Shown here: one piece after another, positions 5,241-45,054 of the stretch
How the letters are laid out: each line of letters opens with the position of its first letter
How positions within the stretch are numbered: the first letter of the stretch is position 1
Origin: Granulicella sp. S190
GTDB taxonomy: Bacteria; Acidobacteriota; Terriglobia; Terriglobales; Acidobacteriaceae
DNA: 64,000 nucleotides
NCBI RefSeq assembly: GCF_009766095.1
Contig: NZ_LMUD01000014.1
Location: 75,976 to 139,975, forward strand
Direction: 5' to 3'
The notes under the pieces: generated by a model
What the model saw: only the letters and a program-made list of their open reading frames with translations
What the model was told of the DNA's origin: nothing
Databases searched by the model: none
Made by a program: the position numbers and the translations under genes

Positions 5241-5304
5241 TCGGCGTAGAACGGATTCTCTTGCAACATGGAGAAATATGTGTTCGCCTTGAAGAATCTA
5301 GACA

Positions 5305-21058: not shown

Positions 21059-21609
21059 CCCTTGGATTGCGACAGAAGTGGAAAGCCTCGATGGATGCGT
21101 TGGCACCCTCGACTATCATTCTGAAATCGGCCGCCGATGGTTTCCTTCCAGCAGGAAAGTGTGGAATTGCTTCTCGATAGAGTCGAGCGGCAGGGTCGGC
21201 TTCCGTCCAGGTCGCGTGGCGAAGCCGTCCAGGTAGTACAAGAACATCTCGTTCACCGTGCGTCATCGATGGCTATCGTTAGCCAAAGTTTTCCGACAGA
21301 TCCATCATCTCCGCAACAGTTTGATGTCGAGTTGAGCGTCATCGACCTGCCAAATGGCATTGGGCTTCAAAGCCTCGCGCCTATGCGCCAGATCGAATTG
21401 AGTAGTTCTGGACCAATAGTCGATAGTTTGGATAAGAGTAGCGAGCCGCATGCGGGTAGTGTTGGTGCTGACGGCAACCCCGTGATTCTTTTCTCCGCAG
21501 AAGAAGTTTTGCGAAAGCCCTTTGTCCTGTCAACGAGCAACACCCATTCGAACAACTTGCAAAAAAGATTTGCATCTGTCCTTGACATCCGCTCTTGTCT
21601 TTTACAAGC
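21059..21609. other. Intergenic stretch before the kinase, no recognised gene
   Basis: Reading frames exist on both strands (for example plus 21137-21643) but none has a convincing start, family motif or codon pattern. A minus-strand stretch at about 21121-21264 reads NEMFLYYLDGFATRPGRKPT between stops and may be a short unrecognised relic. A TTGACA occurs at about 21584, but no good -10 was found. Confidence 0.4.
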
Positions 21610-27993: not shown

Positions 27994-30722
27994 GAGGACT
28001 TATGCAGGTATTTGATGGAAGCATCAAGACGAAACGTCGCGTCGCGGATCCAAAGACCGACACACGCTCAAGTGCACTAGCAAGCATTGCGCTGTCTGCT
28101 ATTGATACGCCCGGGGCCATGCTGTATCCAGGCTCAGATGTCTCAGTCGTACATGGTCACCAGAACCTGTACGTGAGTCAAGACCGCAGCGTGCGGGTAG
28201 CGATGAACCATGATACCCAAATTGGCATGAGCGAAAATCATCTCGTAACGTTGAATCGGAGCGTCACAGTAATGGGAAGTTACACGCGCTCCGTACTGGC
28301 GAGTTCTCTCATAGGAGTGGCAGGAAATTACACCAAGACAGTCGCGTCAAACTACAGCAAGTCTGTGGTGGGTGTCTCCTCAAACGAGATTGGAGGGGAC
28401 TACTTCAAATCTGTCCGATCAAATTATTCCAAGTCTGTTCAGGGCAATTCTGAGAATGCCATAGCTGGCAATTACGGGAAACATGTCACGGGCAACTCCA
28501 ACCATCAGATTGCCGGAAATTATGACAAGCAGGTCGCGGCGAACTACACGAAACAGGTGACAGGTATCTCCACGAATCACATTACTGGAAATTACGTGAA
28601 GGCGGTGCAGTCAAACTACGTTAAGAGTGTGGCAGGCAACTCCGACAATCTCATTGTTGGCAACTACGGCAAGCAGGTTACGGGTAACGCCAGCCACGCT
28701 ATCACAGGGAACTACACTAAGCAGGTAGCATCAAATTACATCAAGGCCATTGCGGGTGTTTCCGCAAATCACATTCAGGGTGACTATCTGAAGATGGTGC
28801 GGTCGAACTATGTTAAGACCGTGACCGGTGATTCCGATAATGCAATCAGCGGGAACTATGCCAAGATCGTTACCGGAAATGCCAGCCACCACATCACGGC
28901 CAATTACTCCAAGCAAGTGATGTCGGACTATTCGAAGATGATCACGGGGGTTTCAACAAACAGCATCATCGGCGATTATCACAAAAATGTGCAATCGAAT
29001 TATACGAAGACCATTATTGGGAATTCGTCAAATGGCATCACTGGCAACTACGGGAAACAGGTGACCGGGAACGCAATTCACCAGATTACGGGAAACTACA
29101 GTAAACACGTCGCTTCGAATTACACCAAGGCCGTTACGGGCATCTCGGCCAATACAATCGGCGGGGACTACCTCAAGACGGTGCAGTCGAACTACGTCAA
29201 GACCGTAGTAGGGAACTCGAACAATGCCATCACGGGAAACTACGCGAAGCAGGTGACGAGCAATTACACGAAAGCTATTACGGGCGTCTCGACAAATACT
29301 ATTACCGGGGACTACCTGAAGACCGTCCTGTCGAACTACGTGAAGAGTATTACAGGAAATTCGGAGAATGCAATCACCGGAAACTATAGCAAACAGGTGA
29401 CCGGGAATGCGAACCATGCAATTACCGGGAACTACACCAAAATGGTCGCCTCGAACTACACCAAGGCAATTATCGGTGTCTCGACAAACAACATTACCGG
29501 AGACTACTTGAAGACTGTCCAGTCGAACTACGTGAAGAGTATTACAGGAAATTCGGAGAATGCAATCACCGGAAACTATGGCAAACAGGTGACCGGGAAT
29601 GCGAACCATGCGATCACCGGGAACTACACGAAGTTAGTCGCGTCGAATTACACCAAGGCAATTACCGGTATCTCGACGAACAACATTACCGGGGACTACC
29701 TGAAGACTATTCAGTCGAACTACGTGAAGAGTATTACTGGCAATTCGACTAATGCCATCAGTGGTAACTACGGCAAGCAGGTGACGGGCGACGCCAACCA
29801 CGCAATTACCGGAAACTACACGAAAAAAGTACAGTCAAAATACACCAAACAGGTGAGTGGAGACGCAGAGAACATCATTACAGGCAGCTACAAAAAAGCA
29901 GTTGCGGCAAACTATGTAAAAGCAATTACCGGCAGCGCAGCGAATACGATCACGGGTTCCTATTCAAAGAGAGTGCAGGCAAGTTACGAGAAGCAGGTTA
30001 CCGGGACGTATGGAAAGACAGTTTCGGGGGACTATCAGAAGACGCTGCTTGCGAATCATAATGAGTCGGTAGGCGGCGAGTCCGCTTCGACAGTAACAGG
30101 TCCCTCTACAAAGACCTACACCGGCGAGCAGATTCGCATCTATGAAGGTAATCTCACAACGACGGTCACCGGAAATCATACCAGCACCACAAACGGCAAT
30201 ACTATTAGTACACGGATTGGTCCTAAGGTCGTGACACAGGTAGGTGCCCATGCGCTTGTACACGCAGACATATCCACGCACACGTATCCAGAGTGGGTGA
30301 CGATCTCAAATCAGAAGGTTACTATACAAGGTTTTAAAAGTGACACCAGTGGTCTGGCCAACAGCATTGCTGGCTTGAGCGTGGGTATAAGCCTCAACAA
30401 TATTGCATTTGCCCTGACTAAGCAGGACTGCTATATCCGGAAGGATGACTTCGGGATATGGAAAGCAGATAACCTCGTTGTAAAAACTGTTACAGCTGCC
30501 AAGAAGACGACAGTAGCGGCAGTTGTTAATGACGTGGCCGTGACAAGTGTCGATACCGCGGCAACCACCGTTGCTGCTGCACCGGTAAGTACTGAGGTGC
30601 ATGAAGAAGTGTTGGATGTTGTTGCATGCGAGACCCTTATTGGCTTAGCGATGGCAGAGAATTTGGTGTCGATTACCCATGCGGGTGTCATTAACGAGGG
30701 ATTAGGGCATGCACTTCCGTAG
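27990..30722 (+). CDS. Stand-alone beta-helix needle of 82 octapeptide repeats
   Basis: A 910-residue protein with a short N-terminal region (1-95), an uninterrupted run of 82 octapeptides (about 96-751) and a C-terminal region of about 160 residues that includes hydrophobic and Ala/Val/Thr-rich stretches. Each octad follows [G/S/A]-[N/D]-x4-[V/I]-x, the VxGxxxxx periodicity of the triple-stranded beta-helix in phage T4 gp5 and VgrG C-termini. I infer a very long trimeric needle that sits on the truncated VgrG. The GTG start overlaps the VgrG stop by 4 nt; ATG 28002 is an alternative. The C-terminal part may be the tip or carry cargo; no enzymatic motif was seen. Confidence 0.85.
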   Translation: MRGLMQVFDGSIKTKRRVADPKTDTRSSALASIALSAIDTPGAMLYPGSDVSVVHGHQNLYVSQDRSVRVAMNHDTQIGMSENHLVTLNRSVTVMGSYTRSVLASSLIGVAGNYTKTVASNYSKSVVGVSSNEIGGDYFKSVRSNYSKSVQGNSENAIAGNYGKHVTGNSNHQIAGNYDKQVAANYTKQVTGISTNHITGNYVKAVQSNYVKSVAGNSDNLIVGNYGKQVTGNASHAITGNYTKQVASNYIKAIAGVSANHIQGDYLKMVRSNYVKTVTGDSDNAISGNYAKIVTGNASHHITANYSKQVMSDYSKMITGVSTNSIIGDYHKNVQSNYTKTIIGNSSNGITGNYGKQVTGNAIHQITGNYSKHVASNYTKAVTGISANTIGGDYLKTVQSNYVKTVVGNSNNAITGNYAKQVTSNYTKAITGVSTNTITGDYLKTVLSNYVKSITGNSENAITGNYSKQVTGNANHAITGNYTKMVASNYTKAIIGVSTNNITGDYLKTVQSNYVKSITGNSENAITGNYGKQVTGNANHAITGNYTKLVASNYTKAITGISTNNITGDYLKTIQSNYVKSITGNSTNAISGNYGKQVTGDANHAITGNYTKKVQSKYTKQVSGDAENIITGSYKKAVAANYVKAITGSAANTITGSYSKRVQASYEKQVTGTYGKTVSGDYQKTLLANHNESVGGESASTVTGPSTKTYTGEQIRIYEGNLTTTVTGNHTSTTNGNTISTRIGPKVVTQVGAHALVHADISTHTYPEWVTISNQKVTIQGFKSDTSGLANSIAGLSVGISLNNIAFALTKQDCYIRKDDFGIWKADNLVVKTVTAAKKTTVAAVVNDVAVTSVDTAATTVAAAPVSTEVHEEVLDVVACETLIGLAMAENLVSITHAGVINEGLGHALP
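28275..30242 (+). repeat. 82 tandem 24-bp octad units with a 192-bp higher-order repeat
   Basis: Read in frame, 1968 bp divide exactly into 82 units of 24 bp without insertion or gap. Eight octads form a 64-residue super-repeat in the order GNYTKxVA, SNYTKAIT, GVSTNxIT, GDYLKTVQ, SNYVKSIT, GNSENAIT, GNYGKQVT, GNANHAIT. Near-identical DNA recurs at 192-bp spacing (for example 29341 and 29533). One super-repeat near 29220-29290 lacks two octads. The 3' copies are the most alike, which points to recent duplication by unequal recombination. Confidence 0.93.
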
Positions 30723-30774
30723 GGGCGAGGTCGATATAGTGATCTCTTCGGATACTAGTTCAGAAGAGGATCGG

Positions 30775-31731
30775 ATGAGTCTCCTGCCGCTTCGAAGGGC
30801 GGAGTCTTTGCAGACATTTAGTCTGTTCTGGTTGCCTGCTCGCTTCTCAACAATGCCTGACGGACAGAAAGAGTGGCTCATTGTCTTTTTCAAACACCTT
30901 GATCAAAAGATCGCTGAGGACTTAGAACTGGCAAAGCTACTATTCCTCCACGAGCAAACGTTACGTGGAAACAACGAGCTGAAGGAGCACTTCTACAAAC
31001 GCCTCCATCGTTATGCTCCGGTTCCCGGTCCCAGTCGCTCACTTACTCAGCCCCCCAGGGCGAAAATGGGGCCGGGTGATATGAAGAAGTTTGCCAACAA
31101 CAGGAAGAATCCAAGTATTGATCCCTATATGACTGAAGTTGCATTTCGGTTCCTTCACGATGGAGCAGCAGATTTTACAAAGGTCTTCATGGGATATGGC
31201 GGTATGACGATAGTCTATTGTGGAGACGCCAGCGAAGAGATGATGCCTCCGATGCAAGTGCCAGCGATGCCGAAAGTTGCTGTCCCTAAGTTCCTACAGA
31301 AGCATACTTTGCTCAAGACGATGATCGAGGACTTCGAACCTGCTAGGCCATCGGCGATGCCTGGCTTTCTTCGGAATCATCCCGCCATGCAGGTGCTTTC
31401 GACGGGGCTCGGAGTTGATTTGAACTCAGGTAATTCGTCGATCCATCTGGACACCTTTGGGAAGAAGAGCAAAGATGTCTTCGGCAAGGCGATCGAGGAT
31501 TCTGCTGGGTTCGAGGGACTACCTTTTATCTTGCCTCGCCTCAGTTCTTCCGACTTTCTCGCTCAGGCTGAGGAGGAGGTGCGCACTTGGTTCGGGGTCT
31601 TCGATATCTATATTAGGGAGTGCCCCGAGGATGAAGGAATCGTCATTGCTTCAAAACATAACCTGAGGCAAATGTTCAAAGAAATCATCGCCTCCATGCG
31701 CGTAGATGGCTACCAGTATTGGGAAGGCTGA
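30775..31731 (+). CDS. Unrecognised injection-locus protein with a C-terminal YIRExPEDxG motif (A)
   Basis: A 318-residue protein of unknown function. No signal peptide or clear TM segment. ATG 30775 is preferred because CAGAAGAGGATCGG precedes it; ATG 30709 would add 22 low-complexity residues and overlap the needle gene by 14 nt. The C-terminus (FDIYIRECPEDEGIVIASK) matches the C-terminus of the next protein (ITLYIRESPEDGGVLIISS), so the two share a terminal domain and are probably distant paralogues. Position right after spike and needle suggests a chaperone/adaptor, effector or immunity role, but the sequence does not discriminate. Confidence 0.65.
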   Translation: MSLLPLRRAESLQTFSLFWLPARFSTMPDGQKEWLIVFFKHLDQKIAEDLELAKLLFLHEQTLRGNNELKEHFYKRLHRYAPVPGPSRSLTQPPRAKMGPGDMKKFANNRKNPSIDPYMTEVAFRFLHDGAADFTKVFMGYGGMTIVYCGDASEEMMPPMQVPAMPKVAVPKFLQKHTLLKTMIEDFEPARPSAMPGFLRNHPAMQVLSTGLGVDLNSGNSSIHLDTFGKKSKDVFGKAIEDSAGFEGLPFILPRLSSSDFLAQAEEEVRTWFGVFDIYIRECPEDEGIVIASKHNLRQMFKEIIASMRVDGYQYWEG

Positions 31732-31739
31732 TCACAGTA

Positions 31740-32528
31740 ATGACAACCAACACATCGACGCCACTTCGGGATGACATGCGGTTCTATATGCCCGTGAAGC
31801 AGCTTATTCTGCTCGGAAAGCCGGGTGGTCTCGAATATTGGATTGTGCCTTGCCCTCTGGGCGCGCGTCCCGACTCCTACGATGCACTCCGTCAGTTCTT
31901 GGAATCATTAGTCGCCTACATGAGTCGCGAACTCGGCTGTTCCCATGAGAGCTTTATAGCCCTCAGCCGGAAAGCTGATCCAAGCGCCAAGTTCCTCTTT
32001 GCTGAGAATGCCCGACACTGGAATCCAGAAACAGGACTAGGCGTCTTACCGCATCAGCCGCCTCCACGCATGATTCGTGCAGCCGACGTGTCGGACCTGG
32101 ACCCGGAGAACCTGCCCCAGGTAATGCACACGCTGTTTCGAGTAAAGAAGGCTGGCAACGTACGGCTGAATGCCATGACGACGATGCTCGGTACGGGCAG
32201 CGGCCTGCAGATCTTGTCGCGGCTCGATGGCACGAAGCTATTAAACGCCCTAAAAGATGAGCACCTCGAGTTAATAGAGGATCCGCTGTATCGCATCTTC
32301 CCGTGGTATGTTCCGCTGCTCGATAAGGCTGCGCTCGACGAGCCACTTATTCCGAGAACCATTGAAGTGACGCGTAGAATCACGTTGTATATTCGGGAAA
32401 GTCCGGAAGATGGGGGCGTGTTGATCATCTCCTCAGAACCGCTTACCGGGCTCGTGGAGCAGTTCGGCTGCAAGCAGCTCGACTATGGAAAAAATCCGCA
32501 ATGGACGCTTGAAGGAATTCCTAGTTGA
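31740..32528 (+). CDS. Unrecognised injection-locus protein with a C-terminal YIRExPEDxG motif (B)
   Basis: A 262-residue soluble protein of unknown function starting at ATG 31740, 8 nt after the previous stop; an upstream in-frame TTG at 31719 is less likely. The segment TLYIRESPEDGGVLIISSEP near residue 220 parallels the tail of the preceding protein. No catalytic motif recognised. The stop overlaps the TTG of the next small membrane protein (TTGA), so these genes are translationally coupled in the vgrG operon. Confidence 0.65.
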   Translation: MTTNTSTPLRDDMRFYMPVKQLILLGKPGGLEYWIVPCPLGARPDSYDALRQFLESLVAYMSRELGCSHESFIALSRKADPSAKFLFAENARHWNPETGLGVLPHQPPPRMIRAADVSDLDPENLPQVMHTLFRVKKAGNVRLNAMTTMLGTGSGLQILSRLDGTKLLNALKDEHLELIEDPLYRIFPWYVPLLDKAALDEPLIPRTIEVTRRITLYIRESPEDGGVLIISSEPLTGLVEQFGCKQLDYGKNPQWTLEGIPS

Positions 32529-33040
32529 CCACTCCTGTAACGCAGATCTTCGTAGCAAGTGAGCAAGTCAGCAGGCTAGTCGTCGTGGCTCCCCCCTACA
32601 CCTTATTGGCCGGCGTCTTCCTAGCGTGTGGTTTGTGTTGCGGGCTCGTCGGCTTAGTACTGGTAGTCGTGGGTTGCCTCGGAGCAATCCAAAGATCTCC
32701 AACTGCGACTGTCTCCGTCGGAGCTCTGCCTGTCCTGCTCTGTTTCGGAATCGGTATACCTTTTGTGGTCGTGGCGGTGCTAACCGGCTCGGCTACTCGG
32801 GTGACCGTATCGCCCGACCTGCTGAAGGTGCAGCGCACCTTCCTTACGTTTCCCGTCAAAACTCGCTCCTATACTCTGGATCAGGTGCGCTTTGTTCAGG
32901 TCGGTATGGGAAACACCTGTCTCTCGCTCCAGGCCGTCATGAACGATGGACGGGGCGAGACGCTGATTGGCTGCACCGACCTTACGGGCTACAACGAAGT
33001 TGCGGACGCGATCAACAGGTTTCTTATCGCTCACCGCTGA
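32525..33040 (+). CDS. Small two-TM membrane protein of unknown function
   Basis: A 171-residue protein. Two hydrophobic helices (about 24-52 and 65-88) are followed by a soluble C-terminal domain of about 80 residues with a PH-like/DUF pattern (VTVSPDLLKVQRTFLTFPV) ending GYNEVADAINRFL. The start is TTG overlapping the previous stop by 4 nt. A second, decayed copy of the C-terminus lies at 33463-33549, so the locus once had a duplicate. It could be an immunity protein or a membrane anchor; this is a guess from context. Confidence 0.65.
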   Translation: MTTPVTQIFVASEQVSRLVVVAPPYTLLAGVFLACGLCCGLVGLVLVVVGCLGAIQRSPTATVSVGALPVLLCFGIGIPFVVVAVLTGSATRVTVSPDLLKVQRTFLTFPVKTRSYTLDQVRFVQVGMGNTCLSLQAVMNDGRGETLIGCTDLTGYNEVADAINRFLIAHR

Positions 33041-33550: not shown

Positions 33551-34291
33551 TCACTCCCCGGACGCGAGACGGAACGCGAGTTCTTTGGGCAGTTCCGCGG
33601 CCAGAATCTTATCTTGGACTGTTCGTATGTCATACTCGACGCGATGAAACTCGGCCACATATGAGGATGAATCGAAGATGCAGTAGGCTGCGCGCGGATC
33701 TCCATCGCGTGGCTGGCCTACAGCACCCGGGTTGAGCAGGTATCGCCGGTTCCAGTTCACCGCGAGCGTCACAGGCAGAGCATCAAGACGGCGGATGTCG
33801 AAACCCCTTCGGCAGGGCTCTGCGACAAAACAACCTTGCACGTGTGTGTGTCCGAAGAAGGTCACCTGCTCTCGAGCGTGATGCATGCCCGTGGCCGCTT
33901 CGTGCTCGTGAAACATATAACGATCCTCATCGTCAGGTGCGCCATGCACCAGGTCCAGATTTTCTACCTGCACCGGGCCGCGCGGCAGGTTACGCAACCA
34001 TTCTTTATTTTCGTCAGTAAGCGCACCGAGCGTCCAGTATGAGGAGTATTGTGCGGCTGTACCAAACGTTTCGCAGGAAGTGAGGCCGCAACAGGCCTTG
34101 TCGTGATTGCCACGCACCACTACGTCAGCATGTGTGCGCACCCATGTAGTTACTTCATTCGGGCTGGGACCGTAGCCAACCACATCGCCCAGGCACAGGA
34201 TTGCCTGATAATCGTGTCTTTTAGCGTCTCCGAGAACGGCGACGAGGGCTTCCCAGTTGGCGTGAAGATCACTCAGTATCAAGAATCGCAA
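33551..34291 (-). CDS. Calcineurin-like metallophosphoesterase
   Basis: A 246-residue cytoplasmic phosphoesterase, last gene of the minus-strand Ubl operon. All metal motifs are present: SDLHANWEA (Asp8, His10), GDVVGYGP, RGNHDKA, the LVHGAPDD His and FGHTHVQG. It resembles the small YfcE/PrpE-like group. Known activities in this fold include phosphoprotein phosphatase and phosphodiesterase. The start appears to be TTG 34291, 15 nt after the E2 stop, with only a weak ribosome site. The large kinase and two FHA proteins lie in the same locus, so it may remove the kinase's phosphates; a role in nucleotide hydrolysis is an alternative. Confidence 0.85.
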   Translation of the reverse strand: MRFLILSDLHANWEALVAVLGDAKRHDYQAILCLGDVVGYGPSPNEVTTWVRTHADVVVRGNHDKACCGLTSCETFGTAAQYSSYWTLGALTDENKEWLRNLPRGPVQVENLDLVHGAPDDEDRYMFHEHEAATGMHHAREQVTFFGHTHVQGCFVAEPCRRGFDIRRLDALPVTLAVNWNRRYLLNPGAVGQPRDGDPRAAYCIFDSSSYVAEFHRVEYDIRTVQDKILAAELPKELAFRLASGE

Positions 34292-34306
34292 GGCAAATCT
34301 CGGCTT

Positions 34307-34828
34307 TCATTCTTCCGGCAAAGTAGGGGTAATCCGAAGCCGGCGTCCGGATCGTGGTGCAGGCAGCGCGGGACTGCAGCAAGCGGGAATGATCATTGAA
34401 GGAATATCAAGCTCATATACAACGTAAGCCCCTGGCTGCATGCAGTGCGCAGGATCCTGATTGACGCACCTGTGCGCCATGATGGAACGTGTGATCTGTA
34501 CTGCATCAATAATCGTCAGGCCAGGACGGTATTCGTGCCATAAACAGGCGAACCCATTCTCTTGGTCGACATTCGGATGGAACACGGGCCTCATGAAGTA
34601 GGCGTCTAGCGGCAGTGTTGGATAATAGCGTGGAAACACGTAGCGAAGCACGTGCTCTGCTCTCACATGAGGCTCGCCTGTTTCACGTATCCACGCAGGC
34701 GAGTTTGCAAACGTAACGTGAAACTCGCCTGGCACTCTTTCTATAGCAACGAAGATGCCAGGATTGGCAGCGGCAAGCGTCTGCAATTGTTCCCATTCCC
34801 CCTCGATCCTCCGTTCGCGAAGGTTCAT
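34307..34828 (-). CDS. E2 ubiquitin-conjugating-enzyme-like protein
   Basis: A 173-residue protein with the UBC fold signature. After YPTLPLDAYF come HPNV (84-87), whose Asn forms the oxyanion hole in eukaryotic E2s, and the catalytic Cys95 in GFACLWHEYRPGLTI. The order HPN, x7-8, Cys, Leu-Trp, then Pro-x-x-T-I matches true E2 enzymes, not merely a degenerate RWD fold. The Cys would receive the ubiquitin-like protein from the E1 encoded upstream. ATG 34828 follows the Ubl stop by 9 nt with an AGAGAG ribosome site. The C-terminal 35 residues are Pro/Arg-rich and variable. Confidence 0.85.
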   Translation of the reverse strand: MNLRERRIEGEWEQLQTLAAANPGIFVAIERVPGEFHVTFANSPAWIRETGEPHVRAEHVLRYVFPRYYPTLPLDAYFMRPVFHPNVDQENGFACLWHEYRPGLTIIDAVQITRSIMAHRCVNQDPAHCMQPGAYVVYELDIPSMIIPACCSPALPAPRSGRRLRITPTLPEE

Positions 34829-34837
34829 CGGCTCTCT

Positions 34838-35098
34838 TCAACCATTGAGAACAATCGTGGATACGCGCAGGATGTCATTCGCCCTGACGCCTTGCTGCGT
34901 AAGCGAGAGGCTAAAGTCGAGCGATACACCATTCCAGACGACCTGGGGTTGACCTTCGCCCTTGAGGTAATCCCCTCGCTCGCGCAACTCGAAGAGAATT
35001 TCATCTAATGTTGCATCCAGTGTTTCCTGTTCATCAATGTCGACGTTGAACTTCTGTTCAGCGCGTACTGTGTCGAACAGCATCTGGTACTTGGGCAT
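34838..35098 (-). CDS. YukD/ubiquitin-like beta-grasp protein ending in Gly
   Basis: An 86-residue protein with the beta-grasp pattern: a beta-hairpin (KYQMLFDTVRAEQKFNVDI), a helix (TLDATLDEILFELRERGDY), then VVWNGVSLDFSLSLTQQGV and a last strand DILRVSTIVLNG. The NG-x-x-L...TL...GI..GD.L order mirrors ubiquitin and YukD/EsaB. The mature C-terminus is Asn-Gly, so the terminal glycine needed for adenylation is exposed without processing. Start ATG 35098 is set by AGAAGGAAGG five bases upstream; an earlier ATG at 35182 would add 28 residues with no Shine-Dalgarno. It is the predicted modifier of this operon. Confidence 0.82.
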   Translation of the reverse strand: MPKYQMLFDTVRAEQKFNVDIDEQETLDATLDEILFELRERGDYLKGEGQPQVVWNGVSLDFSLSLTQQGVRANDILRVSTIVLNG

Positions 35099-35103
35099 GC
35101 CAA

Positions 35104-35113
35104 CCTTCCTTCT
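35104..35113 (-). promoter_or_regulatory. Strong ribosome-binding site deciding the Ubl start
   Basis: AGAAGGAAGG on the minus strand, 5 nt before ATG 35098. This is the strongest Shine-Dalgarno of the operon, consistent with the modifier being made in excess over its enzymes. Confidence 0.75.
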
Positions 35114-35183
35114 ATAAGAGCAGTTGATTTTGATAAAGCGTTCTATTGAGGTCATCGGCGTTGTTCTGTGGCGCGTCATCATG

Positions 35184-35861
35184 TCAGCCGTATGGTAGCT
35201 CGGGGATAGTCCATCGACAACGACTGCACTGGCCGTTCAAGTCATCCCAGCAGGAGCGGCAGTGGCTGTGGCCACATGCACGGCAGGCCCATTGCGATAC
35301 GCGGCCATCGGCCAAGTGAAGACACAACAGACAGCGACCTCCTCTAACTTGAGGGCCGAGGCGCTCTTGCCACCATTCTCCCTCGATAGGCAGCAGGAGG
35401 ATCTGATTTGTCTCGCAGAGTCTGCACCTGTCCTTTTCGAACTCCCAGCAGTTCTCACAGGAGAGCATGTGGCAGCGCGGGCATGAAAAGGAGAGCAGAA
35501 GGCGTACAGACTTCCGGCAGATCTGACAGCGGTCACTGCGCACAGCTGCAAACAATGCCGGGCTCCCTGCAGGAAGGATTGCCAACACCGGTGCAAGCCA
35601 AACGACGTGCGGCAGAGCAGTCTCGCTTCCGGCTAGTCCGGATCCGAGACCAAGCAGGCTGGCGAAACCTGCGACGAGCGGCGAAAGCCCGATGCTAATT
35701 ACCTGAAGCGAAAGAATCCGCTCTCCCAGGTAAATGAGTGTTCCTGCAAGGAGTGCCCCGACAAAACATCCTTCCACATGCCAGCGGATAGCCACTAACT
35801 GTAATGCGGCAGCGAGCAACCCAAGAGATATAAGCAGAACGTGCTTCCGTAACTCTGTCAT
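35184..35861 (-). CDS. Membrane-anchored protein with two tandem RING-like 8-Cys fingers (E3 candidate)
   Basis: A 225-residue protein with about four hydrophobic helices in its first 110 residues and a Cys-rich cytoplasmic tail. Finger 1 has CQIC, SCPRC, CENC and CRLC; finger 2 has CLLC, CRACGHSHCRSCW and CSRC. Each has four CxxC pairs in the spacing of binuclear treble-clef/RING domains. RING fingers beside E1, E2 and YukD-like Ubl genes have been described in prokaryotes as candidate E3 ligases. The start is ATG 35861, overlapping the E1 stop by 4 nt (ATGA). Anchoring would place ligation at the inner membrane, where the injection machine docks. A purely structural zinc role is possible. 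Confidence 0.8.
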   Translation of the reverse strand: MTELRKHVLLISLGLLAAALQLVAIRWHVEGCFVGALLAGTLIYLGERILSLQVISIGLSPLVAGFASLLGLGSGLAGSETALPHVVWLAPVLAILPAGSPALFAAVRSDRCQICRKSVRLLLSFSCPRCHMLSCENCWEFEKDRCRLCETNQILLLPIEGEWWQERLGPQVRGGRCLLCLHLADGRVSQWACRACGHSHCRSCWDDLNGQCSRCRWTIPELPYG

Positions 35862-36745
35862 ACCGCGCTCTCCGCAAAATCGTGTCGACTCTCCTTGATT
35901 AGCAGCGAACCGGCGCCGCAGGCGGGACAACTTCCCCAGCGCCTGACCCACCCCACCCTTCGCTGTGGAAAGAACTGCGCCCCGCACGCTATGCACGCAG
36001 CGCGTGTGCAGACAGGGAATAATTCTCCCGATAACTCATCGTGTAACGGGCATACATCACTGCGGGAGTGGCGTATCTTCTCCGCGATCTCCTGGCGGTC
36101 TAAGTCAAGATGTATAGAGAAAGCATCACATTTGCTAGTGCTGGTTGAGACCGCCACGTCTATCTGCAAAGAGGATACGAGAGAAGTCATCCTGGCCGCG
36201 CTCGTCCAACTGCTTCGCTCCTCCGTTTCCTCAGACCAGCAGGCGTGTACATCCGATTCCCAGGCGCTCAATAAAGAAGCTCTTCGTCGGCTGCTAAGCA
36301 GGCACGCGAAGCAGGCTGCAGATCTCTCATGGGGAAACCAGGAGACCCTTCCCAGCTGTGTACTGGTACCGCCTACTCCAGCGTCACAGACTGGCAACAC
36401 GTAGTGGCCGGCTATAGCTGCAATCTCTGTGCGGGCCAGATCAGTATCCACGCAGCTGAAGAGAATGTCAGACTCCGCAAAGCGCACGGGATCCACATCT
36501 GCGATCTCGACCGACGCTCCTTCCCACCTCGTCGCGGGGAAGCGAGCACGAAGACAGGGGAGGGCCGTAATCACCTTTGGCATGCCAGGAACAGTATCGG
36601 ACCACAGTTCAGACCGGCAGATGTTCTTCTCTTCAAGTAAGTCTGCGTCAGCGATAAAAACCTGTTCACATCCCAGCAGACCAAGCTTGATCGCAAGCTC
36701 GGAACCGAGTGCGCCGATTCCCACAAGCATGACTCTTCGCATCAA
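35858..36745 (-). CDS. E1/ThiF-family Ubl-activating enzyme
   Basis: A 295-residue cytoplasmic protein, first gene of the minus-strand operon. The Rossmann ATP-binding fold has GIGALGSELA (9-18), the acidic IADAD (31-35), the NICRSELW arginine motif (41-48), GMPKV and the FSCVDTDLAR Asp loop (96-105). Cysteine pairs CFAC (145-148) and CIAC/CPAC (251-254, 273-276) are placed like the zinc site of MoeB/ThiF/E1 proteins. TSAARMTSLVSSLQ in the second half is also family-like. It should adenylate the C-terminal Gly of the Ubl and pass it to the E2. Start TTG 36745 has GGAG at good spacing; ATG 36742 is equally possible. Confidence 0.87.
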   Translation of the reverse strand: MMRRVMLVGIGALGSELAIKLGLLGCEQVFIADADLLEEKNICRSELWSDTVPGMPKVITALPCLRARFPATRWEGASVEIADVDPVRFAESDILFSCVDTDLARTEIAAIAGHYVLPVCDAGVGGTSTQLGRVSWFPHERSAACFACLLSSRRRASLLSAWESDVHACWSEETEERSSWTSAARMTSLVSSLQIDVAVSTSTSKCDAFSIHLDLDRQEIAEKIRHSRSDVCPLHDELSGELFPVCTRAACIACGAQFFPQRRVGWVRRWGSCPACGAGSLLIKESRHDFAESAV

Positions 36746-36892: not shown

Positions 36893-37924
36893 ATGGACAC
36901 ATCGTTTCCGCCGGAACCGGAAACAATCAATTCATGGCCGCATGCTGATACTGCTCTATCACAGCGCTTTCTGATGAATATCAATCAACTCCTATATTTC
37001 ATGTCGCTGGCGGGTGGATTAGCTGGGCTGTTCGCGTGGGCGAGCCAAGGGCTGATAGTCATGTTGCTCCCTGCGGGGATAGCTCCCTGGGCGTCTGTGG
37101 TGACTGCGGCTGCCTTACTCGGCGGTTCCATCGGCGGGTTCATCGTCGTCTTCGATGAGAAATGGGCCGGCAACCGCGTGCAGATTCGCTGGGTAGCGAT
37201 GGGCGCGCTGGTAGGTTTCTGTGCCGGCACTGTATCGGGTGCTTTGCATTTGCCGCTTCGTGCGGCTCTGCCAGCCGCGTTGCCGTTGGGCGTTGTGATG
37301 GGTTGGATGGTAAGTGGTGCATTGATCGGCGCAGGGCTCGGCGCACGCTGGCTAGCAGTGAATCGTGCACGCGTTGCGCACGGCATGATAGGCGGCATGT
37401 GCGGTGGCTTTCTGGGCGGAGTAACCTTTGCTACTTTGAGCCAATGGCTGCCTGATATTTCGCAGGCTCTGGCCTTCGTGCTTACAGGAGCCGGCATCAG
37501 TTTTGGTATTGCTTTCGCGCCCGTATTCCTTCGCAGTGCCGCGCTCAGGTTTATAAATAGTGGCGATGCGCGTGCCATCGGGAAACTGGGCAAGAAAGAA
37601 TGGACGGTCCAGGATGGCGACAGTTATATCGTCGGTAGCCAGAGCGCGGACCTCTCCAAGTCACGTTACGGACGCGAGGTAGATATCTACCTGCCTGATG
37701 CCTCGGTAGCTCCGCGGCATGCCCGTATCTACAGCAAAGATGGGCGGTTCTTCATCACGCGACATCCGGATGTGATGTCCGAGGCCGGCCTTCGACGCTT
37801 TGTGCTCAAGGTTCAAAATCGATCTATTACCACGCCACGTGAACTGCAGGATCAGAGTCTTATTGTGCTTGGGCGCACCACGCTGATGTTCCTCGCGAAG
37901 CAGAAGCCGGAGCGATCACAGTGA
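36893..37924 (+). CDS. Polytopic membrane protein with C-terminal FHA domain
   Basis: A 343-residue protein. About six Gly/Ala-rich TM helices (30-220) are followed by a cytoplasmic FHA-like domain (about 238-338) with SYIVGSQSADLSK, ASVAPRHARIYSKDG and a closing IVLGRTTLMF strand. The SxxH core of FHA is partly changed (AxxRH), so phosphothreonine binding needs testing. It begins the right-hand plus-strand operon. Its stop overlaps the vWA gene by 4 nt (GTGA). With no TssL/TssM seen, it may help form the membrane dock and respond to the kinase. Confidence 0.8.
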   Translation: MDTSFPPEPETINSWPHADTALSQRFLMNINQLLYFMSLAGGLAGLFAWASQGLIVMLLPAGIAPWASVVTAAALLGGSIGGFIVVFDEKWAGNRVQIRWVAMGALVGFCAGTVSGALHLPLRAALPAALPLGVVMGWMVSGALIGAGLGARWLAVNRARVAHGMIGGMCGGFLGGVTFATLSQWLPDISQALAFVLTGAGISFGIAFAPVFLRSAALRFINSGDARAIGKLGKKEWTVQDGDSYIVGSQSADLSKSRYGREVDIYLPDASVAPRHARIYSKDGRFFITRHPDVMSEAGLRRFVLKVQNRSITTPRELQDQSLIVLGRTTLMFLAKQKPERSQ

Positions 37925-39375
37925 AGAGAATGTGCCGGTCACTCGCACTTATAGCAGTCGCAGGTCTCTCGTCCCTCTTAGGGGCACAGGGTCCGGCTGT
38001 CTCGCTTGACTTTCTCGCCAAGCCAGCGCTGGTTGAATGCGAACCTGCGGGTGCAGAGCTCTGCTTCCGCTTGAACTTCGGTTTCCTTGACGCCGGTAAC
38101 AAGTCCTCTGCTGTGCCGCTTCCTCCTGCGCGGGAACTTGTGCAGAGGATTGAAGTTCAGGCCGATGGTCAATCCATTTATCCCTTCTATGCAGCGCCAA
38201 CTGCAGGCGGCGTGCAGGTCCCCGCGCGCCGACCGCAGACAGCCATACTGCTTCTTGATGTGAGTGGGAGCATGCTGACTAAGGATATCGACGGGCAGAC
38301 GCGCTTCGACGCGGCAAGAAGTGCGGCGGCCGCTTATCTGCAAGGATTTTCGGATGGTAAAGATCACGTAGCGGTTATTCCCTTCGCCAGTCGCAACCTG
38401 GAGGAGACTATCGCATCGGCCCATTTTGTGAGCACGCGCGCCGAAGCGCAGGCGCAACTGGATGCGTTGCCACGCCCGGAGCCGAACAACAATACTGCAT
38501 TGTATTCAGCAGTAGCAGCCGCTGTCGGCGCGCTGGCACAACAGCGGCATGGCGGCGACCAGGCCCGTCTGATCGTACTTACCGACGGCACAAACGATGT
38601 GCATCCTCAAATTGGCGACGACACCGGTTTATTGACAGGGGTTGATGGCTTGAATGCGGCTGCGATTGCGGTAGAAAAATCTGGTGTCGATGTGCTTCCC
38701 ATCGGGCTCGGGGACGAGCATTCTATCGACGAGGTGTCGATGGCCAGACTTGGCACGCAGCCGCCGTTGATCACCTTCGACATTAACTCGCTGCGCAAAG
38801 CTTTTCAACTGCCGCAGGCAGAGCAAGTAGGCGGAGTTACTGTCATGGTCAAGGCCCCGCGGTCGCTCGCTTCCCGTACCTTGCTTGCGGGTCGAGTGAT
38901 TCGCTTTCGCATAAAGATGACGCTGGCGGACGAAGTGATACTGGTCGAGAACCGGCCTGCTCTCTGGATCGCTCCTCCAGTTGCTACGCCATCGTTCGAC
39001 GGCGAGTCGACCGAGACTGAACAACGGGCGTATCTCGCGAGCGTCCATATAGGCGAAGATTCTGCGTGGCTCATTGCGCGACCCATTTTGGTCTTCTTAG
39101 GATTTGCCGCGCTACTGGCAGTCCTTTGGTTTGGTCTGCCGCGACTTATATGGCTGGATCGCTACGATCACCGCACGGCGAGGCCTTTGCGGCCAGAGTA
39201 TTGGCCAGGATCAGAAATGACGTTGCAGCAGGAGAGCCCGCTCGCTTATCGAGCAGCGCCGCCAGGCTTTGAACCTGGCGGCCGTGGTGTACGTGCGCCG
39301 GTACGCGACCCCAGGGAGAACACCATTGTGCAACCGATGGCAGATTTTGAATCTACTAAGACACGCCTGAGCTGA
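37921..39375 (+). CDS. Exported, membrane-anchored vWA domain protein
   Basis: A 484-residue protein with a signal peptide (about 1-22), a periplasmic region with a von Willebrand A domain (about 100-300) that has the MIDAS motif DVSGS in AILLLDVSGSM, and a C-terminal TM helix (about 385-408) with a ~75-residue cytoplasmic tail. vWA domains bind protein partners through a divalent metal. GTG 37921 overlaps the FHA gene stop; ATG 37930 is an alternative. TssB follows after 25 nt, so the protein belongs to the structural operon. It may be a periplasmic anchor or assembly factor. Confidence 0.85.
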   Translation: MKRMCRSLALIAVAGLSSLLGAQGPAVSLDFLAKPALVECEPAGAELCFRLNFGFLDAGNKSSAVPLPPARELVQRIEVQADGQSIYPFYAAPTAGGVQVPARRPQTAILLLDVSGSMLTKDIDGQTRFDAARSAAAAYLQGFSDGKDHVAVIPFASRNLEETIASAHFVSTRAEAQAQLDALPRPEPNNNTALYSAVAAAVGALAQQRHGGDQARLIVLTDGTNDVHPQIGDDTGLLTGVDGLNAAAIAVEKSGVDVLPIGLGDEHSIDEVSMARLGTQPPLITFDINSLRKAFQLPQAEQVGGVTVMVKAPRSLASRTLLAGRVIRFRIKMTLADEVILVENRPALWIAPPVATPSFDGESTETEQRAYLASVHIGEDSAWLIARPILVFLGFAALLAVLWFGLPRLIWLDRYDHRTARPLRPEYWPGSEMTLQQESPLAYRAAPPGFEPGGRGVRAPVRDPRENTIVQPMADFESTKTRLS

Positions 39376-39400: not shown

Positions 39401-39901
39401 ATGCCGATCATTGAAGTGAAGCGCCAGAATGTACGCCCGGCTGTTCGAAAGGTGCCAACAAGCACTTGTGCTGTCACCATGCCGATGACACGCGAGCGCG
39501 TGAACCGGGAAGTGCATAGCGAAACTGAAGAGCCAACGATGGTGGAATCACTTCAGGATGCGTTTACGAAGTTCAAGCCGCAGATCAAATTCAGTGGAAG
39601 GACTGAAGCGGATGGCATTCAATTCGAAGCGGACTTGCGCTTCGACAGCATCAAGGATTTCGAGCCGTCGAACATCATGACCCGCCAGGAAGTCCGCGCG
39701 GAAGATGGTTCGGTCACCTATCTGCGCAATGATCTGGCAGACCTGAAGAACAACATTGATCTGATGTACCGGCTCAAGGATCGCTGGAAGCTACCCGCTG
39801 TTCGTCGGGCATGGGGCAGCGAAGAGGAGCGCAAGCAGATTATCGCCGCATTGGGGCAGCTGCGCAGTGAACTCGAAAAGGTTGTAGAGGGGGACAAGTA
39901 A
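39401..39901 (+). CDS. tssB: Type VI contractile sheath small subunit TssB (VipA)
   Basis: A 166-residue protein. The C-terminal two-thirds match TssB/VipA: the ADLRFDSIKDFEP segment (about 85-97), then a RYLRNDLADLKN-like region and a terminal helix (RKQIIAALGQLRSELEKV). The N-terminal 50 residues are divergent and rich in Arg/Val. It forms the contractile sheath with TssC, whose start codon overlaps this stop by one base (TAATG). GAGGAG precedes ATG 39401. Confidence 0.85.
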   Translation: MPIIEVKRQNVRPAVRKVPTSTCAVTMPMTRERVNREVHSETEEPTMVESLQDAFTKFKPQIKFSGRTEADGIQFEADLRFDSIKDFEPSNIMTRQEVRAEDGSVTYLRNDLADLKNNIDLMYRLKDRWKLPAVRRAWGSEEERKQIIAALGQLRSELEKVVEGDK

Positions 39902-41244
39902 TGGAAACGCTTACAAGAACCACCAGCGAAATTCTGGGTGAGTCACCGGCGCGCGACGTCATGCTCGAGATATTCGCAGACCTGCATCCCGGGCTTATCG
40001 ATGAGAGCCGCTCGATGGAGTCCATTTTTTCCCCGAAGAGCGCGAATGAGTTTCTTCTTCAGATTTCTGACATTACCGCTATGTTGAGCGAGCAGGACAG
40101 CTTCGAGGAGACGCTGAAGAAGCTGCAGGCGCAGATCGATCGGGCAGAGGGCATGCGCGATGAATTGCTCGAGCAAGTCTTTGAACAGGTGCGACCGATC
40201 GAAAGAAGTTATCGCGAGCTCCAAATCTTCTTTGAAAACACCAAGGTATATGACGGCAAGCAGAGAAAGCCTATTGAACTGTTTGTCTGGAATGCGGACC
40301 CGCGCGAAATCAAGGGTGTATTCAGCATGACGATTGCGGCAGTCGAAAACTTCTGTAAGAAGCGCAATGACAATTTCAACTTCCGGGATGATATCTGCAA
40401 CCTGGTCATACCGGGCATGATCAGTCAGACAGTACGCGAACGCCTCGAGAACATCGCGAATCAATGGGGCATACTGCTAATCACGGATATTGATGACGAG
40501 AAGTCTTTTCAGAATGTAGAACGCAACTTCCGGCCCGGCGGCAAGTACGAGTTTCTCAAGCGTCCAGAGGATCGTGCCGCTGCTGACGTAGTAGTGATGG
40601 GATATCTGCAGTTGAGACCCAAGTACTGGTTTGAGCGCACCCTTGACGGCGGAGACGATCTGTATGGTCCCCCCTCGCTTGCATTTGCCGGCGCAGTGGC
40701 GCGTACTGACGACAGTGCGGGCATGGCGCAGGGTCCCGTTGGTTCACGCTTCGGGCAGATTACAGGGTCTGAAAGGTCACGCATTGAACCGCTGATCAGC
40801 GAGATGGAACACATCAGCATGGAACGGCAGCTGATCCCGATTATCCGCGATGCAGATAACAAGCTGTGCTTCTTCGGCTGCAGAACTCTTGCCGACGATC
40901 CTTACGGCGTGTACAAGTTCTTTACTTCTTATCGCATCATCCGCTACATCGAGCGCTGCTGCAGGCATCATCTTTTGCAGGTTGCCGGTCAAGTGCTCAC
41001 ACGCGACTTTATCGATGAAGCTATCGAACGCCCGATTGCACGGATGCTGCAGGAGCAGGTGGATGCGGGTACACTCATTGATTTCAAACTGGAGATCGAT
41101 CGCGATGCCTCTAAGCGAATGCAGGGTATCTGTGATCTCAAGTTAGAGATTGTTCCTACGGGACCAGGTGAGACATTCCGTCTCAAGATTGACACACCTG
41201 ATTTCACTCCCGAGGGGGCAAAGCAGGAGAAGGAGATCGGGTAA
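39901..41244 (+). CDS. tssC: Type VI contractile sheath large subunit TssC (VipB)
   Basis: A 447-residue protein, slightly shorter than proteobacterial TssC (about 490). The family shows in the SRSMESIFSPKSANEFLLQISDI region and in the long C-terminal part with ITGSERSRIEPLIS and a late SKRMQGICDLKLEI strand. It assembles with TssB around the Hcp tube. Sequence drift relative to classical T6SS (type i) is evident. Start ATG overlaps the TssB stop. Confidence 0.8.
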   Translation: METLTRTTSEILGESPARDVMLEIFADLHPGLIDESRSMESIFSPKSANEFLLQISDITAMLSEQDSFEETLKKLQAQIDRAEGMRDELLEQVFEQVRPIERSYRELQIFFENTKVYDGKQRKPIELFVWNADPREIKGVFSMTIAAVENFCKKRNDNFNFRDDICNLVIPGMISQTVRERLENIANQWGILLITDIDDEKSFQNVERNFRPGGKYEFLKRPEDRAAADVVVMGYLQLRPKYWFERTLDGGDDLYGPPSLAFAGAVARTDDSAGMAQGPVGSRFGQITGSERSRIEPLISEMEHISMERQLIPIIRDADNKLCFFGCRTLADDPYGVYKFFTSYRIIRYIERCCRHHLLQVAGQVLTRDFIDEAIERPIARMLQEQVDAGTLIDFKLEIDRDASKRMQGICDLKLEIVPTGPGETFRLKIDTPDFTPEGAKQEKEIG

Positions 41245-41383
41245 TGTGCACGCAGGAGAGATCCGGAAATCTGACATGTGGCTCGATCGCATTCTCAGGT
41301 TCATCAGGCGCTCGCTGCAAAGGCGTACGAGCATTCAACTAAACGCACCACAGCGAAAGGAAATAAAAAGGAGAGCGGTTCAT

Positions 41384-41842
41384 ATGTCTAGTCCACTACG
41401 CAGCACGATCACGATCAACGGTAATAAGTTTGATGCTCTGGCGAGCAGCGTACGCTTTGCAACATTAAAGGATCGCGCGGGTATGCCTGAGATGGGTACG
41501 CTTTCAACCGCGATCAAGGTCTACGCCGACTTTCACGATGATGTAAATATTTCGAACGGCATACTCCAGCAGCTCTTTACGCTTGCGAACGTGGTGACAC
41601 GCGACAAAATCGTCGATATGAAGATTGAGTACTGGAAGGACGACGCCAAGAAGGACGCCCTTTGCAGCTATAAGTTCAAGGGTTGGATCAGCCGCTTTGA
41701 AACCGGCAATCCACTCCCCGCTTCGGCTCCGGATGGGAGTGTCGATTCGAGCCAGTATTCGACCGTGAACCATCTGCTGACGCTTGAACTTGAGCCGGCA
41801 ATGAACCAGCAGAACTTCAAAGAGATCACCATGGGTAATTAA
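41384..41842 (+). CDS. hcp: Hcp (TssD) tube protein
   Basis: A 152-residue protein beginning MSSPLRSTITINGNKF at ATG 41384, which has a strong AAAAGGAGAG ribosome site. The size, beta-rich sequence (SYKFKGWISRFETG) and place between TssC and TssE identify the Hcp tube subunit. A longer upstream frame overlaps TssC and was rejected. Separate leader and strong ribosome site fit the high copy number of tube subunits. No C-terminal effector extension. Confidence 0.8.
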   Translation: MSSPLRSTITINGNKFDALASSVRFATLKDRAGMPEMGTLSTAIKVYADFHDDVNISNGILQQLFTLANVVTRDKIVDMKIEYWKDDAKKDALCSYKFKGWISRFETGNPLPASAPDGSVDSSQYSTVNHLLTLELEPAMNQQNFKEITMGN

Positions 41843-41957: not shown

Positions 41958-42401
41958 TTGATTACAAAGCCATCTCCAGATCATCTCTACAGCCTGCCGA
42001 TTGCATTCCCTTTACGCCTGCAACAGGCACAATTGCAGAAGACAGATGCGCGAGAGTCATACCTTACGCTGCTCTGGATCATGGCGCGAACGCCATGTGG
42101 TTCCTGGCCTGGAGATCAACACTTCGGTTTCCGGGAGTTCTTTCACGATGTTCTCAAGGACGGACTGTCGGAAGAGCAGCGAACCCGCTTGATCGACACC
42201 ACTGTGAAGAATATTAATACCGTTATGGTGGGGCTCGACCTGAGGGATTACTGTGTCGATTCGCTTGCCCTTGAAGGGCCGCCGAAAGAGTTGCAAGGCT
42301 TCGAGCGTGCTCGCTGGCTGAATCAGAGCATGGAAGCTTATGGCGTGACGCTCACGGTGCGTGAAAGAAGCAGCGACCGCGCATACGGATACAGCCTATG
42401 A
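41958..42401 (+). CDS. tssE: TssE (gp25-like) baseplate protein
   Basis: A 147-residue protein starting at TTG 41958, set by GTAAGGAGC eight bases upstream. It shows the gp25-like short segment SWPGDQHFGFREFFHDVL and the following NTVMVGLDLRDYCVDSLALE strands. TssE/gp25 nucleates the sheath on the baseplate. The stop overlaps TssF by 4 nt (ATGA). Identification rests largely on size, order and the FGFREFF motif. Confidence 0.7.
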   Translation: MITKPSPDHLYSLPIAFPLRLQQAQLQKTDARESYLTLLWIMARTPCGSWPGDQHFGFREFFHDVLKDGLSEEQRTRLIDTTVKNINTVMVGLDLRDYCVDSLALEGPPKELQGFERARWLNQSMEAYGVTLTVRERSSDRAYGYSL

Positions 42402-44116: not shown

Positions 44117-45054
44117 GCGAGGCGTCACCTACCCTGCAGACGATGAGCGAATCTGCTAAGGCACCCCTTATGCCGAACTTTGCGCAAAGCACCAGCACTT
44201 TCACGCACACTGTTGATTCGGCGATGCGCGTGCTTGATGCATTCGGCGTCTCGGAATCGCGCGTTACACTGCGAATGGCGGGTCTTGGACGGCCGAGTCT
44301 CGAGATTGTGAGTCAATCGCCACCGCCCGGCTCGCCGCTCATCTCGTCGGTGAGGATCGTTTTATTCATCGCCGGCTTTGGCTTCTTCTCCGCGTTGCCC
44401 CTGCCCATGCGTGAGTCGGGCGGTGAGGCCGAGATGGGCACACGCGAGATCTGCCAAGTCTTTGACGATCCCTTGCAGAAGGCGGCACAGTGGTTCCGTG
44501 CAGGTGCTCCTCTCTTCGCGATCGGGCCGGATAAGCCTGCAGCATGCCGCCGCTGGCTCTCGCTCTTTGGAATTGATCCAACATTGTGGCCCGAGGAACT
44601 GCTCTATCCCCTCGCGCTGCTTGCGCCAACGCTGGTCCGTTTTGCTGGGAGGCAAATCGGTGTAAAGCTCGCCTTTCTCATGCTCTTCGGTCTGCCTGTT
44701 TACGAAATATGCAACACCAGCAATTACAGATCCTTGCCAGCCAACCAGTGTTCGCTCTTTGGTGCGCAGGCGAGTCGGCTTGGTACCGATCTGCTGTTAG
44801 GCGATCGTCAAGCGGATGCGGATGCGATCACGGTCCGACTAGGGCCAGTCACACTTGTAACTTACGAGTCTTTTCAGACCCCTGACGGCAGGCGACTTTT
44901 AGAACTGGCAACCGATCTTTGCCTGAGTGCCTATCAACAACACCAGATTGGCTGGCTCGTCGAGAATGAGTCTGAAGTGCCTCGCCTTGGTGTCGCTGCC
45001 AGTAACAGCCGTATCGGTCTCAATTTTCACCTGGGCAGAGGAGCTTCAGTATGA
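44107..45054 (+). CDS. tssG: TssG (ImpH)-like baseplate protein
   Basis: A 315-residue protein between TssF and TssK, the usual TssG position. The middle has FGLPVYEICNTS and the C-terminal end resembles TssG proteins, which close with a PRLG-x-SRIGLNFHLGRG-like strand. The N-terminal 60 residues are poorly conserved and the start could be internal. The TssK ATG overlaps its stop (ATGA). Support is mostly positional. Confidence 0.65.
   Translation: MVVSEASPTLQTMSESAKAPLMPNFAQSTSTFTHTVDSAMRVLDAFGVSESRVTLRMAGLGRPSLEIVSQSPPPGSPLISSVRIVLFIAGFGFFSALPLPMRESGGEAEMGTREICQVFDDPLQKAAQWFRAGAPLFAIGPDKPAACRRWLSLFGIDPTLWPEELLYPLALLAPTLVRFAGRQIGVKLAFLMLFGLPVYEICNTSNYRSLPANQCSLFGAQASRLGTDLLLGDRQADADAITVRLGPVTLVTYESFQTPDGRRLLELATDLCLSAYQQHQIGWLVENESEVPRLGVAASNSRIGLNFHLGRGASV

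Follow-up and report, generated by a model that had tools for sequence, protein, structure and literature searches.

Known systems and the locus of Granulicella sp. S190

To our knowledge, the characterised bacterial pathways for ubiquitin-like proteins (Ubl) act in defence or metabolism or, as for Bub, lack a settled role. Bacterial operons with E1, E2, Ubl and JAB genes are described in the available part of PMC1779556, and Kaur 2020 (PMC7159879) reports JAB, E1 and RING genes that share an operon with a Ubl-E2 fusion. According to the accessible text of PMC11364771, Bil attaches its Ubl to the central tail fibre of phages; in that of PMC13373217, Bub is not shown to be defensive. Here we describe a cassette of five genes, for an E1, a RING-type membrane protein, a Ubl, an E2 and a phosphoesterase, that lies within a type VI-like injection locus of Granulicella sp. 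S190. The window, i.e. the whole stretch of DNA analysed, comprises 64,000 nucleotides of contig NZ_LMUD01000014.1. The company of this cassette and the machine of the type VI secretion system (T6SS) kind goes beyond chance. Bacterial E1-E2-RING-Ubl operons are already known, and the form tied to a T6SS appears to be new: among the titles and abstract openings listed by literature searches, none points to a Ubl pathway in a T6SS locus, though Burroughs 2011 may mention one.

The cassette resembles the prokaryotic E1-E2-RING-Ubl(-JAB) neighbourhoods (Iyer 2006; Burroughs 2011; Kaur 2020) in that a single operon combines E1, E2 and Ubl genes with one for a Prok-RING-related protein. It differs from them in lacking JAB, in its two-finger membrane protein, in a Ubl with a bare single glycine and in standing constantly beside a contractile injection machine. 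With Bil, Cap2 of the cyclic oligonucleotide-based antiphage signalling system (CBASS) and Bub it shares the logic of Ubl conjugation, and the profile of its E1 matches BubCD and Cap2 structures in the PDB, next to those of UBA7, MoeB and UBA5. In contrast to these systems, its E1 and E2 are encoded separately, the locus shows no JAB, a RING protein is present and the neighbours are T6SS genes. The sole JAB match (PF01398) of the source genome (5.05 Mb, completeness 99.8%) is at C8:308944, beside another ThiF gene.

As for the machine, it shares TssB, TssC, TssG, TssK, Clp ATPase and VgrG-like genes with T6SS type i. However, the source genome as a whole gave no TssM and no TssL match, the spike is made of VgrG- and gp5-type genes, and FHA and vWA membrane proteins stand here beside the sheath genes. 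Of 12 genomes, 10 lack TssM (PF06761) and two have it at a site away from the locus. The T6SS type iii of Bacteroidota does without tssJLM; in the available passages of PMC10781749 its TssN is predicted to be EccD-like, docking of the baseplate is proposed for the ubiquitin-like domain of this protein, and its TssR has a vWA-like domain. The window resembles this type by a sheath protein matching PF17541 TssC, by the lack of TssL and TssM matches and by ubiquitin-like and vWA-like domains, which type iii also has, but its Ubl is a separate small protein accompanied by E1, E2 and RING. No Pfam match to the TssN-R families was found among the 27 neighbouring proteins of the locus, to which the Pfam scan was limited. 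PpkA-Fha-PppA is a phospho-switch of the T6SS. Kinase, FHA and phosphatase genes are likewise found within the present locus; here they are coupled to E1-E2-RING-Ubl, and vWA and FHA are separate membrane proteins.

The cassette keeps company with the injection machine

Direct reading and translation of the window place the five cassette genes on the minus strand (33551-36745), in the order E1, RING-type membrane protein, Ubl, E2 and phosphoesterase. The RING-type gene starts with an ATG at 35861 that overlaps the E1 stop codon as ATGA, and the following spacings are 85, 9 and 15 bp. All five open reading frames (ORFs) are free of internal stops and frameshifts. The first-pass annotation had reported this set of minus-strand genes, with E1, E2 and Ubl looking intact, and direct reading confirms it. 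The E1 and FHA genes are divergent and about 150 bp apart, a gap that would be larger if FHA starts later, as its relatives suggest.

Among 399 genomes of the class, 19 have both the Ubl and a close TssC, one has the Ubl only, none has TssC only and 379 have neither (Fisher p 1.4e-31, not corrected for phylogeny). In the Ubl-only genome, G928, the contig breaks off at the stretch that holds Ubl, FHA and vWA. Two genomes with distant TssC matches, G724 (26%, E 5.7e-5) and G215 (27%, E 6.3e-5), were not accepted as window-type; counting G724 would change the figures to 19, 1, 1 and 378. In the genus of the window, 4 of 24 genomes have TssC and the same four have the Ubl, hence both come and go together. 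When E2 was used in 299 genomes of the family, 16 had E2 and a close TssC, one had TssC only and four had E2 only. In the TssC-only genome, G256, the contig concerned is 4.3 kb long and breaks off at FHA. G031, G079, G121 and G134, considered as counter-examples with E2 and no window-type TssC, were rejected as such: they carry a different, E1-Ubl-E2-JAB system. A single Ubl sequence as query found matches in 6 of 396 genomes of a phylum sample. A scan of contigs with E2 gave five named loci, each with the whole cassette at the same place; all belong to Acidobacteriota, and four of them are labelled Acidobacteriaceae or Edaphobacter.

E1, RING, Ubl, E2 and TssB are found on one contig in 25 distinct loci from 24 genomes: eight of clade A (the window, L004-L008, L031 and L032), nine of clade B (L033-L041), L080, and seven of a second family (L072-L077 and L079). 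L029 and L030 were taken as duplicates of L004 and L006 and counted once, and four further loci (L042, L043, L078 and L081) end before Tss genes. In clade A the spike-side genes and FHA enclose the cassette. In clade B it is also divergent from FHA; beyond it, the spike-side genes of the window are unmatched in 8 of 9 loci, L038 having two matches, and a gene-by-gene reading of L034 showed unrelated ORFs there. L080 has VgrG- and needle-like genes co-directional with the cassette and two other ORFs between RING and E1. In the second family the cassette is co-directional with FHA-vWA-TssB, lying about 4 kb upstream in L073. The description 'buried antisense' therefore holds for clade A, whereas in other relatives the cassette is at the edge of the locus or runs in the direction of FHA-vWA-TssB. 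One genome, G158, carries two such loci (L032 and L034), each with its own cassette, plus a TssM gene elsewhere.

Cassette and machine have also diverged in parallel. Distances of the cassette and of FHA/vWA/TssB are strongly correlated (Mantel r 0.95, reached in 0 of 5000 permutations). Of 25 loci entered into this test 24 were used, as L078 has no TssB on its contig; L036 and the edge-limited, duplicate and fusion loci were left out. The correlation is consistent with a functional tie and is not proof of it. With the co-occurrence in 399 genomes, the adjacency in several arrangements and the separate Ubl operon of another T6SS type in two relatives, it supports the tie to an injection machine that had been proposed from the window, and the survey of acidobacterial genomes for cassette and sheath genes suggested at that time has given co-occurrence.

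Proteins of the cassette

The E1 has a GxGxLG loop, Asp32, Asn40, Lys56, Asp99, Cys pairs and a candidate catalytic Cys168 (numbering of alignment A4; invariant residues judged on a 19-sequence alignment). Lys56, Asp99 and Cys168 are kept in 24 of 24 loci. In a PADLOC scan this protein gave 'E1-E2' domain matches, and no match was obtained for RING, Ubl, E2 or phosphoesterase. Two ThiF-family genes elsewhere in the source genome score higher than the E1 of the cassette.

The E2 scores 26.9 bits with UQ_con, just below the cut-off of 27. Its profile finds E2s as best matches in the PDB (best E 0.0014), with Cys95 aligned to their catalytic Cys. Cys95 is invariant in six of six sequences. The HPNV motif is present in three of these, the remainder having HANV, HINV or HVNV.

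The membrane protein is a predicted RING-type E3. Its two fingers are similarly spaced (C-x2-C-x11/12-C-x2-C-x4-C-x2-C-x7-C-x2-C). The 16 finger cysteines are invariant across the 19 rows of alignment A3; across the 41 rows of alignment A6, fifteen are invariant and Cys201 is nearly so. A profile search aligned the second finger with RING domains from NOT4, Arkadia and AMFR (E 0.002-0.007). At E<=0.1, Prok-RING_2 is matched by 18 of 41 members and Prok-RING_1 by 15 of 41, and the window protein itself matches neither. Its AlphaFold2 model has a mean predicted local distance difference test (pLDDT) score of 89.8.

For the Ubl, the AlphaFold2 model (pLDDT 90.3) predicts a fold with ubiquitin and SUMO among the best matches, and the Ubl domain of EccD5 from ESX-5 is also matched. 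A profile search against PDB sequences gave nothing meaningful (best E 0.066). It had been called YukD-like; none of 39 Ubl members matches the Pfam YukD model at E<=1, and what stands of that comparison is the resemblance of the predicted fold to the EccD5 domain. Of the 226 homologues found, 120 were listed; every one of these ends in Asn-Gly, and 113 are exactly 86 residues long. Conservation is much higher in the Ubl than in its enzymes: identity with two distant groups is 67-68%, versus 32-38% for E1, E2 and RING. The same holds for eukaryotic ubiquitin. Close homologues are found in the named species Edaphobacter modestus, Granulicella mallensis and Silvibacterium acidisoli, which makes the tagging hypothesis presented below testable. 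A plasmid search with the Ubl gave no match.

The fifth gene is specific to the lineage. A phosphoesterase is found at this place in clade A only, so that the phosphatase of the first-pass annotation holds for the window and its clade and not for the other relatives. In 20 loci (L033-L043 and L072-L080) a kinase matches at this position, as checked with Pfam in L034, L039 and L073. L081 gave no match for the fifth gene.

Related operons with a JAB protein

In L089 (1264-3727, genome G031) and L090 (569-3045, G134), an E1-Ubl-E2-JAB operon precedes the genes of a canonical T6SS: about 1 kb downstream of it, beyond an ORF on the opposite strand, come a lipoprotein-like ORF, TssK, TssL and TssM. 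The Ubl of these operons matches Pfam YukD (E 0.0075 and 1.4e-5) and ends with GG plus two residues. As it extends past GG it would need trimming, in keeping with the presence of JAB. E1, Ubl and E2 of the same kind, with a JAMM motif, are found on two fragments of metagenome-assembled genomes, L046 and L047, each of about 5 kb and so not long enough to show whether T6SS genes adjoin.

Nine further places with E2 (in G029, G117, G128, G102, G050, G153, G106, G076 and G123) are JAB-containing operons. In the stretches read around them no T6SS match was found at E<=1e-3, except a weak ClpV-like one in L117. The Ubl operons of the family are thus not linked to T6SSs in general. Among the JAB-containing E1/E2 operons of this family that lie away from T6SS genes (L115-L123), a small Ubl ends with AGG-Q or AGA-R in L115 and L119, and a zinc-finger protein lies between JAB and E2 in L115 and L118. 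A plasmid of Crinalium epipsammum (NC_019754.1, L124) carries E1, two small ORFs, E2 and MPN/JAB beside a conjugative transfer gene of type IV secretion.

Proposed role and alternatives

Judging from the sequences, we consider it somewhat probable that E1, E2, RING and Ubl covalently tag a component of the neighbouring machine, likely controlling its anchoring, assembly or firing. The E1 would adenylate Gly86 of the Ubl and take it onto its own Cys, for which Cys168 is the best candidate, and the Ubl would then pass to Cys95 of the E2. The RING protein would bring the charged E2 to its target at the inner membrane. This target would most likely be one of the membrane proteins that the locus encodes, with FHA and vWA as first candidates. 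As the source genome has no TssL/TssM match, another component must anchor the baseplate, and the Ubl tag may serve as docking module for it, by analogy with the TssN domain outlined in the available part of PMC10781749. Tagging may moreover be gated by phosphorylation through the kinase and phosphatase, the FHA domain and threonine motifs of vWA, by analogy with PpkA-Fha-PppA. Among 27 tails of related vWA proteins, 23 keep T[IVQ]V and 22 keep T[RK]L; these motifs could be phosphorylation sites and ligands of FHA. The Ubl already ends in glycine, so a maturation protease would be unneeded, and none was found in the locus. For a Ubl pathway acting on a tail-like machine there is a precedent: Bil, in the accessible text of PMC11364771, tags the central tail fibre of phages. 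If the proposal is true, bacterial ubiquitin-like tagging would take part in the construction or the firing of a machine, a new role for it, by means of the E1-E2-RING set that eukaryotes use. A wider proposal, which we advance tentatively and hold for possible rather than probable, is that of a class of machines without TssL/TssM in which a standing ubiquitin pathway, under control of kinase or phosphatase, tags a membrane protein for docking of the baseplate, whereas Bacteroidota have such a domain built into TssN, and in which T6SSs have recruited Ubl conjugation on more than one occasion. Such repeated recruitment is suggested by the E1-Ubl-E2-JAB operon at TssKLM-type loci.

Several observations weigh against the tagging proposal. 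Linkage and parallel divergence can arise from co-inheritance of neighbours, and the nearest neighbours of cassette and machine agree in 15 of 24 loci only. The window E1 begins at the nucleotide loop, without an N-terminal helix. At the third position after Asn40, which presumably corresponds to Arg73 of MoeB, an ATP-site arginine, 7 of 24 loci have Arg, 8 have Lys and 9 have another residue. With Foldseek, no fold match of the RING model to the PDB was found at E<=0.001, and the zinc-finger entries in the top rows are FYVE and PHD domains; hence the RING call rests on sequence. Finally, two loci, L055 (gene coordinates 1650-9041, genome G515) and L082 (4828-10696, G691), hold E1, RING and a Ubl-E2 fusion with PP2C nearby, L055 also having vWA and, as in the 25 loci where it stands beside the sheath genes, FHA. 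No Tss genes were found within 16.5 kb (L055) and 12.2 kb (L082); a TssC match is absent from G515 and on another contig in G691. As the Ubl is fused to E2, its tail is not free for transfer in these two loci, and as the fusion form goes without Tss genes, a Ubl module with FHA and vWA may predate the tie to the machine. It had been reasoned from the window that relatives occurring mostly away from injection loci would speak against this tie: this is not the case for the form with a free Ubl, whereas it is for the fusion (two loci) and the JAB operons (nine).

The chief rival is that the Ubl is not conjugated and forms a structural or docking subunit of the membrane base of the machine, like the domains of EccD or TssN, with E1, E2 and RING as its partners. 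It is the chief rival since the window Ubl resembles the EccD5 domain and TssN has been proposed to dock the baseplate. A ubiquitin-like domain can indeed serve a T6SS as a plain scaffold, if the analogy with TssN in the available part of PMC10781749 is followed, and the ubiquitin-like passages there concern TssN and EccD, by which this explanation gained and conjugation lost weight. However, conjugation and not a scaffold needs the Asn-Gly end kept in all 120 listed homologues, the Cys, Lys and Asp kept in all 24 E1 sequences and the Cys kept in six of six E2 sequences, and none of the 25 loci has the Ubl without E1, E2 and RING. We therefore regard an unconjugated Ubl as rather unlikely, though worth keeping in view. 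That the cassette is a Bil-like anti-phage system lying by chance in a T6SS island appears improbable. A T6SS is tail-like, as is the target of Bil in the accessible text of PMC11364771, and it is the E1 that yields the PADLOC matches mentioned above; but the other four cassette proteins yield none, the scanned locus proteins include no JAB, and of the 20 genomes of the class sample with a Ubl or a close TssC, 19 have both, the rest of the sample having neither.

The place of the clade A cassette between spike and sheath genes, and the spike-type genes on its far side in L080, would fit a Ubl or Ubl-tagged protein that is a payload injected into a neighbouring cell. This we judge very improbable: the far side has no match to the spike-side genes of the window in 8 of 9 clade B loci (two in L038) nor in the stretches of the second family, and a membrane RING protein, conserved E1 and E2 and an unusually conserved Ubl suit a resident pathway. 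Scarcely credible, in our opinion, is a sulfur-transfer or cofactor pathway of the ThiS/MoaD type. The E1 does resemble ThiF and MoeB, but E2 and RING are no parts of sulfur pathways, the two higher-scoring ThiF-family genes lie elsewhere in the genome, and no thiamine or molybdopterin gene was found among the 27 neighbouring proteins scanned. Covalent tagging of a machine component is the explanation we prefer.

The injection machine and flanking genes

The sheath, baseplate, Clp ATPase and spike genes of a T6SS are present in the window, the assignments of TssF and of the tube being weak (Table 1). Relatives keep the ORF at the tube position, which in clade B is often duplicated in tandem, and the three ORFs that follow the needle gene are conserved in clade A.

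Table 1. Genes of the cassette and of the surrounding injection locus, in order of their position in the window.
Feature	Position	Strand	Evidence and remarks
Ser/Thr kinase, one transmembrane segment, PEGA and CarboxypepD_reg repeats	21595..26379	+	Pkinase E=4.1e-44
VgrG-like spike hub	26401..27993	+	Phage_base_V E=3.6e-24
gp5-type needle protein, 910 aa	27990..30722	+	Gp5_trimer_C 2.3e-39, 10 stretches
Three ORFs of 340, 269 and 171 aa (171-aa one with hydrophobic segments)	30709..33040	+	no Pfam match
Calcineurin-like phosphoesterase, lineage-specific fifth gene	33551..34291	-	TTG start; Metallophos_2 E=7.8e-20
E2-like ubiquitin-conjugating enzyme, HPNV, Cys95	34307..34828	-	Pfam UQ_con E=4e-6, 26.9 bits
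Ubiquitin-like protein, 86 aa, ends Asn-Gly	34838..35098	-	predicted beta-grasp fold
Membrane protein, N-terminal hydrophobic helices and two C8 RING-type fingers, predicted E3	35184..35861	-	225 aa
E1-like ThiF-family adenylyltransferase	35858..36742	-	ATG 36742 or TTG 36745; Pfam ThiF E=5.5e-20
Membrane protein with C-terminal FHA domain	36893..37924	+	FHA E=2.1e-6; hydrophobic segments
vWA protein, signal-like N-terminus, one transmembrane segment, tail with Thr motifs TIVQ and KTRL	37921..39375	+	VWA_2 2.1e-13
TssB-like sheath subunit	39401..39901	+	T6SS_VipA E=7.4e-6
TssC-like sheath subunit	39901..41244	+	PF17541 TssC E=4.7e-23
ORF at tube (Hcp) position	41264..41842	+	Hcp by position; no Pfam or NCBIfam match
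Small conserved ORF	41958..42401	+	no Pfam or NCBIfam match
Baseplate protein at TssF position	42398..44116	+	weak TIGR02243 / Baseplate_J
TssG-like baseplate protein	44107..45054	+	T6SS_TssG E=3.5e-7
TssK-like baseplate protein	45051..46793	+	T6SS_VasE 7.1e-10; TIGR03353 1.5e-15, below cut-off
ClpB/TssH-like AAA+ ATPase	46808..49441	+	ClpB 924 bits > TssH 711 bits, both below cut-off

The ORF of the gp5-type repeat protein varies greatly in length among relatives, from 396 to about 1090 aa. The T6SS-like locus closes with a gene (49353-51581) whose product combines 3-keto-disaccharide hydrolase domains with an FHA domain. Downstream of the locus, an AbiEii-family nucleotidyl transferase (type IV toxin-antitoxin) is encoded at 54173-55255.

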